From an uncultured Alphaproteobacteria bacterium (GTDB lineage: Bacteria; Pseudomonadota; Alphaproteobacteria; Rhodobacterales; Rhodobacteraceae): a DNA stretch of 36,121 nucleotides. The notes beneath the pieces were generated by a model. The model was not told the DNA's origin and ran no database searches. It worked only from the letters and a program-made list of their open reading frames with translations. Positions within the stretch are counted from its first letter, which is position 1. Each line of letters starts with the position of its first letter. Positions 9,823 to 20,647 of the stretch are shown in pieces. The DNA lies in contig CABZEW010000019.1 of NCBI GenBank assembly GCA_902524845.1, positions 1 through 36,121 on the forward strand, read 5' to 3'. The position numbers and the translations under genes are program-made.

Positions 9823-10809
9823 CTAATTAAGTGCAGCGTTTGTTATTTCGTTAGTCCACGCGCCTGACGGTTTCTTAGTTATAACAGGGTCTGAGTCACC
9901 AGACATTAAAACCTTAACGGTTCTTTCATAATCTGCCTCATCTAGTGAACCATTTGATCCAGCTGTAAGCTTTGCGATTTCGCCCATCATTCTAACTTGA
10001 TGTTTCTCAGTTTGAACGCCTGCATCATCGTTATCTAGAATAATCATTGCAGCCTCTTTCGGATTAGCCTCTGCATACTTCCATCCTTTCATGGATGCTC
10101 GCACAAACCTTACCATTTTGTCTTTAAAGGCCGGGTCGCTAAGATTTTTTTCATTTACATATAGGCCATCTTCAAGCGTTGCTGCTCCTTCTGACTGGTA
10201 CTTGAAAACTGTTAGCTGTTCAGGAGAGAAGCCAGCGTCTCTAACAACCCAGTATTCATTATAAGACATAGTAGATACGCATGCCGCCTGACCTTCTGTT
10301 AGGGGTTCAACACCCCAACCTTGTCTCAAAACGGTAACTCCATTTGTACTACCGTCAGTTTTTAGTCCCAATCGGCTCATCCAGCTGAGAAATGGATATT
10401 CGTTTCCGTAGAACCAAACTCCCAAAGTTTTTCCTTTTAGATCAGCAGTAGTATTTACTCCCATATCTTTTCGACAAGTAAGCATCATACCGGAGCTCTT
10501 AAAAGGTTGGGCTATGTTTACTAGTGGAAGGCCTTTTTCCCTCGCAGCTAAAGCCGAAGGCATCCAATCGACCATGACATCGGCTCCACCACCCGCTAAA
10601 ACTTGTGCAGGAGCGATATCTGGTCCACCTGGTTTAATGGTTACATCAAGACCTTCAGCATCATAAAAGCCTTTATCTTTTGCTACATAATATCCAGCAA
10701 ATTGAGCTTGAGTAACCCATTTTAATTGAATTGTGACCTTATCAGCAGAAAAAACAGCTGATGCACTCAATATGAAAGCACAGGTCAATACAGATAGAAT
10801 CTTCTTCAT
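9823..10809 (-). CDS. NMT1/THI5-like ABC transporter substrate-binding protein
   Basis: A periplasmic binding protein of 328 residues with a clear signal peptide (Lys-Lys, hydrophobic core, cleavage near Val-Phe-Ser-Ala at residue 22). The mature start, with Lys-Trp-Val-Thr-Gln-Ala-Gln-Phe-Ala-Gly-Tyr-Tyr-Val-Ala, is the classic NMT1/THI5-like opening, which binds pyrimidine-type ligands (hydroxymethylpyrimidine and relatives) in characterised members such as ThiY. A Gly-Gly-Pro-Asp near residue 60 and Met-Val-Asp-Trp-Met match the ligand cleft region. I start at the ATG at 10809 with GAGGG just upstream; an extended start at 10836 is less likely. It feeds the two permeases and ATPase encoded immediately upstream. 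Ligand inferred to be a pyrimidine- or hydantoin-like compound from its partners. Confidence 0.92.
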   Translation of the reverse strand: MKKILSVLTCAFILSASAVFSADKVTIQLKWVTQAQFAGYYVAKDKGFYDAEGLDVTIKPGGPDIAPAQVLAGGGADVMVDWMPSALAAREKGLPLVNIAQPFKSSGMMLTCRKDMGVNTTADLKGKTLGVWFYGNEYPFLSWMSRLGLKTDGSTNGVTVLRQGWGVEPLTEGQAACVSTMSYNEYWVVRDAGFSPEQLTVFKYQSEGAATLEDGLYVNEKNLSDPAFKDKMVRFVRASMKGWKYAEANPKEAAMIILDNDDAGVQTEKHQVRMMGEIAKLTAGSNGSLDEADYERTVKVLMSGDSDPVITKKPSGAWTNEITNAALN

Positions 10810-10866
10810 TTTTTTCCCTCTTAGTGTTTTTTTCAATTGTTAATCAATTTACTTTTATACGCAACG

Positions 10867-11709
10867 TTAATTTTGTTGGCTGGGATGCCAAAAAGTTATG
10901 CGCTTTTCTGTTAAGGCAATTAACCCATAAAAAAGACAGCCGGCAACAGCCGCGACAAAGATTTCCGCCCACACCATGTCCAATGCAAATCGACCTACTT
11001 CAGAGGATATTCTAAATCCCATCCCTTTTATAGGAGATCCAAAAAACTCAGCGACAATTGCGCCGATCAATGCAAGAGTAGAACATATTTTTAAGCCATT
11101 AAAGATAAAAGGCATTGCGGACGGTAAACGAAGCTTAATCAGAGTTTGAGTGTAGGAAGCGCTGTATGTTCTCATGAGGTCTTGCCGACTAGGGTCTACA
11201 AGTTCTAATCCTTGAACACTGTTTACGAGCATTGGAAAATAAACCATTACTACAACAATGGCGCACTTTGATTGCCAATCGAATCCAAACCACATCACAA
11301 AAATTGGTGCCATTCCTACGATTGGCAATGCTGAAATGAAATTACCTAATGGTAAGAGACCTCGTTTAAGGAAATTGAATTTATCAATTGCAATAGCTGT
11401 TAGAAAGGCTGCGCTACAACCCAAGATGTATCCAGAAAGAGCACCTTTTACCAAGGTCTGAACGAAATCAATCCAAAGAATGTCTAGAGACCGAGAAAAC
11501 TTTAAAGCTATGGCGGATGGAGCAGGGAGCAAAATAGGATTTATTTGTAATCCAATTACAGCCAACTCCCACATTAAGAGAACTACTATTCCAAATAGAG
11601 ATGGAACTATAAATCTTGGCAATTGGACGTTTTGCGAGTTAGATATTCTCACGTTAATCCACCATCCTCCGAGCCAAATAATAAAAAAAAGAAGTAAAAA
11701 TATATTCAT
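10867..11709 (-). CDS. ABC transporter permease (BPD transport system inner-membrane component)
   Basis: A 280-residue membrane subunit with about six helices and the permease EAA-type loop (around Tyr-Ser-Ala-Ser-Tyr-Thr-Gln-Thr-Leu-Ile-Lys-Leu-Arg-Leu-Pro, residues 182-196) that contacts the ATPase. It belongs to the SsuC/TauC/ThiX-like group that pairs with NMT1-type binding proteins. The start overlaps the stop of the preceding permease gene by 4 bases (ATGA), a sign of coupled translation and 1:1 stoichiometry. Together they most likely form a heterodimeric channel. Confidence 0.92.
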   Translation of the reverse strand: MNIFLLLFFIIWLGGWWINVRISNSQNVQLPRFIVPSLFGIVVLLMWELAVIGLQINPILLPAPSAIALKFSRSLDILWIDFVQTLVKGALSGYILGCSAAFLTAIAIDKFNFLKRGLLPLGNFISALPIVGMAPIFVMWFGFDWQSKCAIVVVMVYFPMLVNSVQGLELVDPSRQDLMRTYSASYTQTLIKLRLPSAMPFIFNGLKICSTLALIGAIVAEFFGSPIKGMGFRISSEVGRFALDMVWAEIFVAAVAGCLFYGLIALTEKRITFWHPSQQN

Positions 11710-18820: not shown

Positions 18821-19596
18821 CTAAACATATCCTCTTTTTGTTCCCGTAAAATATCGCTTGCAGAACCATACTCGCTACTCCAGCTAAGTCCTCTTAATAA
18901 AATTGCAGGACATTTCCCTGCCTTGCTCATGAGCAGCCCTGAAGATGCTGCTATTTCATCACAAAAAGCTGGTTCTGTCACGTATAATTGATTTCCCCAT
19001 GCGTCGCTGCTTCCCTGCTCTTTTTTTGTTGCGGGTAGCCCGGCTATACCAATAGCAACATTTACCTGTCCAATTCTCCACGGTCTTCCAAAGGTATCGC
19101 TCATGACTATTCCCAAATTTTCCAAATTAAAGTAATTTATAAGTTTATCTCTTAAAACTTTCATACTAAGGTCAGGATTTTTTGGAACGGTTATTACTGT
19201 TTCATTCTCAGCTAGATTAGACTCGTCAACTCCTGCATTTGCACAGATGAAACCGAGTTTATGTTGGCAAATGAGCGTCCCTTCATTTTGATCAGCTCTC
19301 TTAAACGAACGAATTATTTTTTTACTTTCTTGTAAAACGACTTCGACTTTTCTTGCATCTTTGTTAAGGGTTTTTGCAAGTTTGATTGCTTCTTTCGATG
19401 GAGTTATTTCTTTTAATTTTATTATGCAGCCCTCAGCCTTGGAAAATATTTTATGAGCAAGGCATATAACATCATGCTCCTTGAGGATTATGGAAGATTT
19501 TTCGAGAGCAGAAATTAAGATGCCGCTAATGTTGTCACCTTTAGCGATGTCAGGAATATTTGGGATAATTTTTAAATTTAAACTTGAATTTGACAT
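18817..19596 (-). CDS. cofE: Coenzyme F420-0:L-glutamate ligase
   Basis: Adds the gamma-linked glutamate tail to F420-0, using GTP in known enzymes. The 259-residue protein is the single-domain type (no C-terminal flavin domain as in actinobacterial FbiB). Family motifs are [24 protein letters not shown] near residue 120, and [10 protein letters not shown]-x-Gly-Gln near 165. I use the ATG at 19596, since a GTG extension to 19626 adds residues outside the normal family N-terminus. It lies 109 bases after cofD and overlaps npdG. Confidence 0.92.
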
Positions 19597-19705
19597 TTTC
19601 TTAAATACCGCAGTCTTAGACTGCACAATATTATCTTTTAGATCAATACCTGCAATAATATTTTGGACGAAGGGACGTTCTAAATTTTAATTCGCAATTG
19701 ATCAA

Positions 19706-20647
19706 TCAATCGATAGGAAGGTTAATTAAAAACTTAGCGAGCTTCTTCTTGTCTGCAAGAGATGTCATGAAAGTATCCGTAAATATGGAATTTTGATTCA
19801 ATGCTGAAAATTGTTTTTCTAGGCCTTCATCGGATTTATCAAGAATGAATGATTTACAGATATCTTTATAAATTTGCATACAAGAAAAAGAATTTGCTTT
19901 GAAACCCAATTGTTTAAGCATTTTTGTTGCAGGCCCTTTTACAGCTTTTCCTTGGATAAGTGGACTTACTGCAATTACCTTTTTTTTATTTTTTTGAATA
20001 ATTGATTTAAAGCCAGGTATTTCAATTATTGGTTTTATGCTGACTAAAGGATTTGATGGAGCAATGATTATTAATGTAGCATCGATTAGAGCTTTTTTTG
20101 CCTCTTTAGTTATTTTCGCCGAATTGATTCCAGCATACTTTAGCTTCACAATTTTCGGCGAACACCTATTTTTAACAAAATATTCCTGAAATGATATCCA
20201 GCCCGACTTGGTTTTTACCTCTGTTCGTATCTTGTCGTCGGTTGGTAGGATTATATCTGCAGTTATTCCCAATTTTTTAGCGATATCGTTAGCGATAATT
20301 GTCGGACGATCATTTTTTAACAGTCTGAGATGTCTATAAATATGGAGACCAAAGTCGAAGTCTCCCAAAGACATCCAAGTTTCTTCGCCCAGTTTATTTA
20401 ATATCGAGAGCGCTTTATAATTATCATTTTTAACACCCCATCCTTGCTTTCGGTTAACCATTCCTGAAAGTGTATACGTCAAAGTATCTATATCTGGAGA
20501 AACTCTTAGCCCATGGAACTCTTCATCGTCTGCGATGTTACCAATAATAGTTAGTTTTATATCTTTTAAAGAATGCAGTCCCTCTGCTAGTTTCGCGCCG
20601 CCTACACCACCCGCTATAAGAACTATATTTTTACAAGAAATTTTCAT
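19706..20647 (-). CDS. cofD: 2-phospho-L-lactate (phosphoenolpyruvate/3-phosphoglycerate) transferase, F420 biosynthesis
   Basis: Joins the riboflavin-like precursor Fo to a phospho-C3 acid from its GDP-activated form, giving F420-0 or its dehydro form. The 313-residue protein shows the CofD signature throughout: Gly-Gly-Val-Gly-Gly-Ala-Lys-Leu (13-20), Asn-Ile-Ala-Asp-Asp-Glu-Glu (37-43) with Asp40/Asp41 as likely metal ligands, Ser-Pro-Asp-Ile-Asp-Thr (50-55), Gly-Asp-Phe-Asp-Phe-Gly, Pro-Ser-Asn-Pro-Leu-Val-Ser and Val-Lys-Gly-Pro-Ala. Which C3 unit it uses cannot be told from sequence. It is the first gene of the minus-strand block. The guanylyltransferase (cofC) and Fo synthase (cofG/H) genes are not in the window. 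Confidence 0.94.
   Translation of the reverse strand: MKISCKNIVLIAGGVGGAKLAEGLHSLKDIKLTIIGNIADDEEFHGLRVSPDIDTLTYTLSGMVNRKQGWGVKNDNYKALSILNKLGEETWMSLGDFDFGLHIYRHLRLLKNDRPTIIANDIAKKLGITADIILPTDDKIRTEVKTKSGWISFQEYFVKNRCSPKIVKLKYAGINSAKITKEAKKALIDATLIIIAPSNPLVSIKPIIEIPGFKSIIQKNKKKVIAVSPLIQGKAVKGPATKMLKQLGFKANSFSCMQIYKDICKSFILDKSDEGLEKQFSALNQNSIFTDTFMTSLADKKKLAKFLINLPID

Follow-up and report, generated by a model that had tools for sequence, protein, structure and literature searches.

An F420 module in the apparent place of PreTA in a probable reductive pyrimidine-catabolism gene cluster of the Rhodobacteraceae

The stretch of DNA analysed here (the window) comprises positions 1 to 36,121 of contig CABZEW010000019.1 from an uncultured member of the Rhodobacteraceae (assembly GCA_902524845.1), whose genome (G000; G and L numbers are our handles for genomes and loci) is assembled as 1.945 Mb in 89 contigs and is 74.4% complete. 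Open reading frames (ORFs) and family scans place 11 minus-strand genes between 9823 and 20647, and the whole same-strand run comprises 13 genes and extends to 7321 (Table 1). In order along the minus strand these are cofD, cofE, npdG, a gene for a luciferase-like monooxygenase (LLM) class protein, eamA, an M20 amidohydrolase gene, a dihydropyrimidinase gene, the ATPase, two permeases and binding protein of an ATP-binding cassette (ABC) importer, a class-III aminotransferase gene and a gene for a class-V pyridoxal-phosphate (PLP) enzyme. With starts as called, the extreme junctions in the block are a 26-base overlap (EamA/M20) and a 97-base gap (LLM/EamA), and the run continues past the binding-protein gene to its last two members via gaps of 6 and 15 bases. 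The original prediction, made from the letters alone, named the genes from cofD to the importer as lying on one strand, and each of them was confirmed; its count of twelve should be eleven, and it omitted the aminotransferase and class-V PLP genes beyond. The block is no chance grouping, because related loci repeat the same gene order. We suggest, with a probability of roughly 0.8, that it is a reductive pyrimidine-catabolism (Pyd) cluster where an F420 module has displaced PreTA, an iron-sulfur flavoenzyme, and the best reading of the LLM protein is as an F420H2-dependent uracil/thymine reductase that would take over the function of PreTA.

Table 1. Genes of the same-strand run, in order along the minus strand, with scores in bits and model cut-offs where available.
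Feature	Position	Strand	Family evidence and remarks
CofD, 2-phospho-L-lactate transferase (F420 synthesis)	19706..20647	-	PF01933 133.9, cut-off 30; TIGR01819 249.4, slightly below cut-off 257.45
CofE, F420-0:L-glutamate ligase	18817..19626	-	TIGR01916 220.4, cut-off 180.65
NpdG, NADPH:F420 oxidoreductase	18152..18820	-	TIGR01915 173.4, cut-off 149.8; 4-base overlap with cofE
LLM-class F420 oxidoreductase, family TIGR03842	17135..18136	-	TIGR03842 505.5, cut-off 295.45
EamA-family permease	16126..17037	-	PF00892
M20 carbamoyl-amidohydrolase, proposed beta-ureidopropionase (PydC)	14859..16151	-	NF006769 681, cut-off 452
Dihydropyrimidinase (PydB)	13385..14845	-	TIGR02033 591, cut-off 393
ABC importer ATPase	12590..13363	-	PF00005
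ABC importer permease	11706..12581	-	PF00528
ABC importer permease	10867..11709	-	PF00528
NMT1/THI5-like binding protein	9823..10836	-	PF09084
Class-III aminotransferase, proposed beta-amino-acid aminotransferase	8470..9816	-	PF00202
Class-V PLP enzyme, downstream end of the run	7321..8454	-	PF00266; retained in same-genus loci

The replacement is visible in relatives that carry the conventional reductase. We compared 12 stretches around PreA genes from other genomes (L214, L216, L218-L223 and L229-L232), and in seven of them preT-preA lies beside M20 and dihydropyrimidinase genes (L214, L216, L218, L220, L221, L231 and L232). In all of these except L232, the M20 protein is 73-75% and the dihydropyrimidinase 65-79% identical to its counterpart in the window, and importer genes come next up to the end of each stretch; in L221 this takes in the ATPase alone. 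The place of preTA is occupied in the window by cofD-cofE-npdG-LLM. The known Pyd pathway with PreTA or dihydropyrimidine dehydrogenase (DPD), as encoded in these relatives, and the window have in common, in matching order, the genes for dihydropyrimidinase, carbamoyl-amidohydrolase and importer, whereas PreT and PreA (which use FAD, FMN, iron-sulfur clusters and NAD(P)H) were not found in the window, which has an F420-type LLM protein, NpdG and Cof proteins instead. An EamA homologue (45% identity) adjoins PreA in L221, and it is the L221 dihydropyrimidinase that is 79% identical to that of the window; together with one other row it adjoins the window clade in a tree of 46 dihydropyrimidinases, in which the placement of L046, at the end of a very long branch, is unsure. 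The LLM-linked dihydropyrimidinases are scattered in this tree among preTA-linked and unlinked ones, with at least four label changes forced by supported branches, which suggests that the preTA and LLM modules have been exchanged repeatedly.

Counts across two bacterial families describe a near either-or pattern of PreA and LLM. Among 394 genomes from the family of the window, taken to be the Rhodobacteraceae on the strength of named relatives, TIGR03842 is over cut-off in 13, PreA is present in 316 and both occur in two (G200 and G330), so that PreA is found in 2/13 LLM-positive versus 314/381 LLM-negative genomes (Fisher 5.5e-7; this and the other Fisher values treat genomes as independent, which genomes are not, and one of them used a 575-bit cut picked after the scores had been seen). 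Restricting the comparison to genomes with a completeness of 90% or more and a contamination of 5% or less gives 2/11 versus 287/335 (Fisher 2.1e-6). Dihydropyrimidinase (TIGR02033) is present in ten of the 11 genomes with LLM and without PreA, the remaining one being 74% complete, versus 28 of the 67 genomes with neither reductase (Fisher 0.003). Each of the two genomes with both reductases has a pair of dihydropyrimidinases, of which one lies beside preA and the other beside an NCS1-type gene. The second family, that of G098, was reached from the Alteromonas locus L054 and sampled with 196 genomes: LLM occurs in four and dihydropyrimidinase in 13, including all four with LLM, and PreA is found in none of those four and in eight of the nine other dihydropyrimidinase genomes. 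The ninth of these, G557, has preT close to a contig end, beside its dihydropyrimidinase. A further set of 48 LLM-positive genomes was picked from 80 loci and partly overlaps the family sample; it leaves out most same-genus loci, L016-L018 and L021 (of single-cell or metagenome-assembled origin) and most Devosia loci, and 45 of its members have dihydropyrimidinase over cut-off. Within G000 itself, 74% complete, no PreA was found with NF006183 at E<=1e-100, nor was one found by the same search in the 91%-complete same-genus genome G008, and PreA is not over cut-off in the genome of Paracoccus denitrificans DSM 413 (G077), which carries a homologue of the window LLM (L033). PF01180 is over cut-off once in G000 (232 bits), presumably as pyrD. 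The expectation that preTA should be missing where the F420 module is present was thus borne out in the incomplete genome of the window and by the strong anti-correlation in both families.

The association also recurs around the LLM gene in relatives. Neighbourhoods were counted at 70 loci, after 10 same-genus loci had been dropped from the 80, and several of the contigs are truncated. A CofE homologue lies near LLM at 64 of these loci, NpdG at 39, Fgd at 26, a RutR-like regulator at 24, M20 at 22, dihydropyrimidinase at 17 and an NCS1 symporter at nine; dihydropyrimidinase or M20 is near LLM at 25, and one of these two or the RutR-like gene at 35. The original prediction had looked to such a neighbourhood in other proteobacteria, and dihydropyrimidinase and/or M20 are indeed found near LLM in Rhodobacteraceae, Pseudovibrio, SAR116, Paracoccus, Marinomonas and Alteromonadaceae, with a dihydropyrimidinase-LLM pair beyond the proteobacteria in a Streptomyces. 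The most complete case is a plasmid island of Leisingera caerulea, in which genes for a nucleobase symporter, dihydropyrimidinase, M20, an aminotransferase and NAD(P) transhydrogenase (PntAB, L294 5254-8271, with homologues in L029, L030, L036 and others) diverge from cofG-H-D-C-E-npdG-LLM and a regulator whose closest solved relative is RutR (5e-44; structures 3loc, 4jyk and 4xk4). In G604, the symporter, dihydropyrimidinase, cofG-H-D-C-E, npdG, LLM and M20 genes form one run on one strand. On the Streptomyces plasmid L295, a dihydropyrimidinase gene (554 bits, cut-off 393) immediately precedes an LLM gene (562 bits, cut-off 295) whose product matches the window LLM at 149 of 312 aligned residues; upstream of the pair, tblastn gives an aminotransferase-like match (29%), and there is also a nitrilase-superfamily amidase (TIGR03381 258 bits, below its 410-bit cut-off). 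From its family assignment, this pair is accompanied by another type of carbamoyl-cleaving enzyme.

As regards the LLM protein itself, its family, TIGR03842, is named by NCBI without a reaction. Its closest solved structures are those of the F420-dependent enzyme Mer (e.g. 1z69, E 3e-26), with a nearly full-length match, but it scores about 125 bits against a Mer cut-off of 276 (NF002619/TIGR03555: 125 versus 276 and 118 versus 349), and we rejected an identification as Mer on these scores. RutA shares with the window protein the LLM fold and a place in pyrimidine breakdown, but it opens the pyrimidine ring using FMN and O2, unlike what we propose here. The RutA model TIGR03612 is absent from the families that the window LLM matches at E<=1e-3, and the resemblance to Mer together with this absence is consistent with the F420 type assigned to it originally. 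RutA was also considered as an alternative ring-opening route and rejected after a search of LLM-positive genomes, where it is over cut-off in one of 61; it was not found in G000 at E<=1e-100. Across 44 LLM sequences from Proteobacteria and Streptomyces, the invariant residues include W40, H53, N65, R69, R95, D97, Y155, Q173, N230, H231, Y260, D261, Y262 and H265.

Our data are consistent with the following scheme. The ABC importer, whose binding protein has as its closest solved relative a formyl-aminopyrimidine binder (3ix1, E 1e-16), would take up a pyrimidine. NpdG would use NADPH to keep F420 reduced, and the TIGR03842 protein would use F420H2 as the hydride donor to C6 of uracil or thymine, yielding the 5,6-dihydropyrimidine. 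Dihydropyrimidinase would then open the ring and the M20 enzyme cleave the carbamoyl group, giving beta-alanine or beta-aminoisobutyrate; the closest solved relatives of the latter enzyme are an N-carbamoyl-L-amino-acid hydrolase (8apz, 669 bits) and an N-carbamoyl-beta-alanine amidohydrolase (8c46, 664 bits). The aminotransferase may act on the resulting beta-amino acid. Its top match among solved structures is GSAM (286 bits), and the beta-transaminase 2yku reaches 166 bits; a 61% identical homologue follows LLM in L044, and AptA-type omega-aminotransferases are over cut-off in Leisingera L294 and the preTA-linked L221. Synthesis of the cofactor would involve CofD and CofE, and the genus encodes CofH, and presumably also CofG and CofC, at other sites: of 22 same-genus genomes, 18 have CofH at E<=1e-60 and 17 have it over cut-off, and all five Cof proteins (CofC, D, E, G and H) are encoded near LLM in many relatives. 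A partial cofH match with two in-frame stops lies in one same-genus genome (G021:C2:64009-64743). At loci with Fgd, glucose-6-phosphate would reduce F420 in place of NpdG, and the presence of transhydrogenase genes in the Leisingera island agrees with a need for NADPH. Genome-level tests thus support the original proposal of an F420H2-dependent pyrimidine reductase with NpdG as the recycling enzyme; the reaction itself we infer.

A number of observations weigh against this interpretation. The genes cofG, cofH and cofC lie outside the block, a search of the incomplete G000 found no CofH, and the window has no RutR homologue. Five of the 12 PreA stretches have neither M20 nor dihydropyrimidinase nearby, and an opposite-strand RutR-like gene often intervenes between preTA and M20, so the preTA-hydrolase groups are better described as clusters than as one operon. 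On a plasmid of Paracoccus alcaliphilus, cof-npdG-LLM lies near a different importer with no hydrolases within 14 kb, and at 35 of the 70 loci there is no dihydropyrimidinase, M20 or RutR near LLM. Such unlinked loci are what one would expect if the F420 and pyrimidine genes had no functional connection and had come together by chance or through shared transfer. We find this hardly credible, given that linkage is seen in several lineages with differing transporters (ABC or NCS1) and differing carbamoyl-cleaving enzymes (M20 or nitrilase superfamily), and that the genes co-occur genome-wide even where they are unlinked, as in G347, G298 and G201, each of which has both an LLM-cof operon and M20-dihydropyrimidinase-importer genes. 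Of these 35 loci, 26 carry Fgd; they are Roseibium-type loci and a Devosia-type group in which putative genes for F420-0 uptake occur. At 21 loci among L059-L082 (Devosia and relatives, except L074 and L080) LLM lies with Fgd and a CofE homologue, in many cases with a putative F420-0 ABC importer, and CofD and NpdG were not found near LLM there. These look like loci that scavenge F420-0 to serve the LLM protein. All four Devosia genomes tested (L061, L062, L064 and L067) have dihydropyrimidinase, and one (L064) has PreA.

To the same side of the balance belong the genomes that depart from the either-or pattern. PreA and LLM occur together in 2/13 (family sample) and 9/48 (locus-derived) LLM-positive genomes, and M20-dihydropyrimidinase-importer genes are found with neither reductase at 12 loci of genomes negative for both at the thresholds used (L196-L205, L234 and L235, from G392, G401, G220, G032, G322, G341, G375, G324, G268, G351, G389 and G161). 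Ten of the 12 have a RutR-like regulator, and several of the assemblies are near complete. Together with the 28/67 genomes that keep a dihydropyrimidinase, these loci indicate that the hydrolases can be retained where no known reductase is present; they may represent either a decayed pathway, the use of dihydropyrimidines from outside the cell or another reductase. No third reductase was seen beside the hydrolases in stretches of 10-18 kb in which most ORFs were not identified. One recurrent ORF near these hydrolases was identified as GH114; in some genomes a gene of this family separates M20 from dihydropyrimidinase (L196 8114-8899, L209 9828-10751 and, by similarity only, L218). Clusters with neither PreTA nor LLM would also suit a scheme in which some other enzyme reduces the pyrimidine and LLM acts downstream, for instance as an F420H2-dependent malonic or methylmalonic semialdehyde reductase. 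The cluster aminotransferase would yield such an aldehyde, and the F420-dependent LLM enzymes known to us act on carbonyl/alcohol or C-N centres. However, a downstream role predicts that LLM and PreA should co-occur, whereas the proportions found in the Rhodobacteraceae run the other way and the two proteins are complementary in the second family, and we consider such a role quite improbable. The chemistry counts against a pyrimidine reductase of this fold: the characterised F420-dependent LLM enzymes known to us work at C-N and C-O centres, and reduction of C=C bonds is more familiar from the flavin/deazaflavin oxidoreductases (FDORs), so the proposed reaction would be new for the fold.

The identity of the ring calls for similar caution. 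The dihydropyrimidinase of the window is about equally close to a D-hydantoinase (4tqt, 748 bits) and a dihydropyrimidinase (3dc8, 734 bits), and because both are its nearest solved relatives hydantoin and dihydropyrimidine substrates are inseparable by sequence alone. In addition, the NCBIfam name of the M20 subfamily NF006769 is 'allantoate amidohydrolase', a further point against a pyrimidine pathway. The LLM protein might then use F420H2 on another ring that feeds the dihydropyrimidinase, such as an unsaturated hydantoin, a modified pyrimidine or a ring derived from a purine, yanthine being one example; a putative F420-dependent yanthine reductase of the luciferase family has been proposed in uric-acid clusters of Chloroflexota (PMC12507026). 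We regard this as unlikely, although less so than a downstream role: the same hydrolases and importer are found beside preTA, PreA is anti-correlated with LLM, and a RutR-like regulator accompanies LLM at 24 of 70 loci, the one from Leisingera being nearest to structures of RutR itself. The adjacency of preTA to the same hydrolases in relatives and the RutR-like genes lead us to favour the uracil/thymine version over hydantoin.

Variation in the first step of the reductive pathway has precedent. NAD(P)H- and ferredoxin-dependent PydA variants have been described (PMC7332683), and the PydAc protein of Clostridium resembles our proposal in using a different electron donor, ferredoxin. It is, however, a PydA homologue with FMN and iron-sulfur clusters, whereas the window LLM belongs to another family, and the available portions of that paper do not mention F420. 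A close conceptual parallel is the yanthine reductase of Chloroflexota, where clusters lacking YgfK and a PF01180-type UacX hold the putative F420 enzyme (PMC12507026): there too an F420 LLM-family protein appears where the usual reductase of a reductive ring pathway is missing. The ring in that case is purine-derived, the pathway is anaerobic and the enzyme is likewise a prediction. A putative F420/FMN oxidoreductase, SSGG-03002 or NpsU, is genetically required for reduction of uracil at C5-C6 in the mureidomycin and napsamycin pathways (PMC10714638). It differs in serving antibiotic synthesis, its activity was not obtained in vitro in that study, and we liken it to the window LLM by description only. 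The present system is not described in the available portions of these three papers or of PMC8498797, and no earlier proposal of F420-dependent pyrimidine breakdown was found among the matches listed in the open-access literature, a search whose scope left most subscription papers outside.

Three further observations were made in passing. The four importer genes of close relatives come in two versions, with 59-71% versus 88-98% identity to the window and flanking genes at 87% or above, which divide L004, L005, L011 and L013 from L003, L006-L008, L010, L012 and L014; this suggests that close relatives differ by a swap of the importer cassette. At the Devosia loci, none of six recurrent ORFs matches a Pfam family at E<=1e-6, and these are probably antisense reading frames in DNA rich in GC. 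Elsewhere in the window (22433-24192), a 4-hydroxybenzoate 3-monooxygenase gene is followed, with a 4-base overlap, by one for a cytidine/dCMP-deaminase-type protein.

F420 has been detected in trace amounts in Paracoccus denitrificans, and the reason why Proteobacteria make it has been listed as an unanswered question (PMC8498797). We lean towards a broader view in which TIGR03842 is a flavin-free and iron-sulfur-free dihydropyrimidine dehydrogenase, unrelated to DPD/PreTA and present in Proteobacteria and at least one Streptomyces, and in which pyrimidine breakdown is the main reason that most proteobacterial carriers make or scavenge F420. If true, this would provide a substrate for an LLM family that NCBI names by number only, and would add an unrelated type of uracil-reducing enzyme to those already described. 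Breakdown of uracil and thymine run on F420 could explain why such bacteria make the cofactor, and would turn the wider puzzle of F420 in Proteobacteria into a question for one direct experiment.

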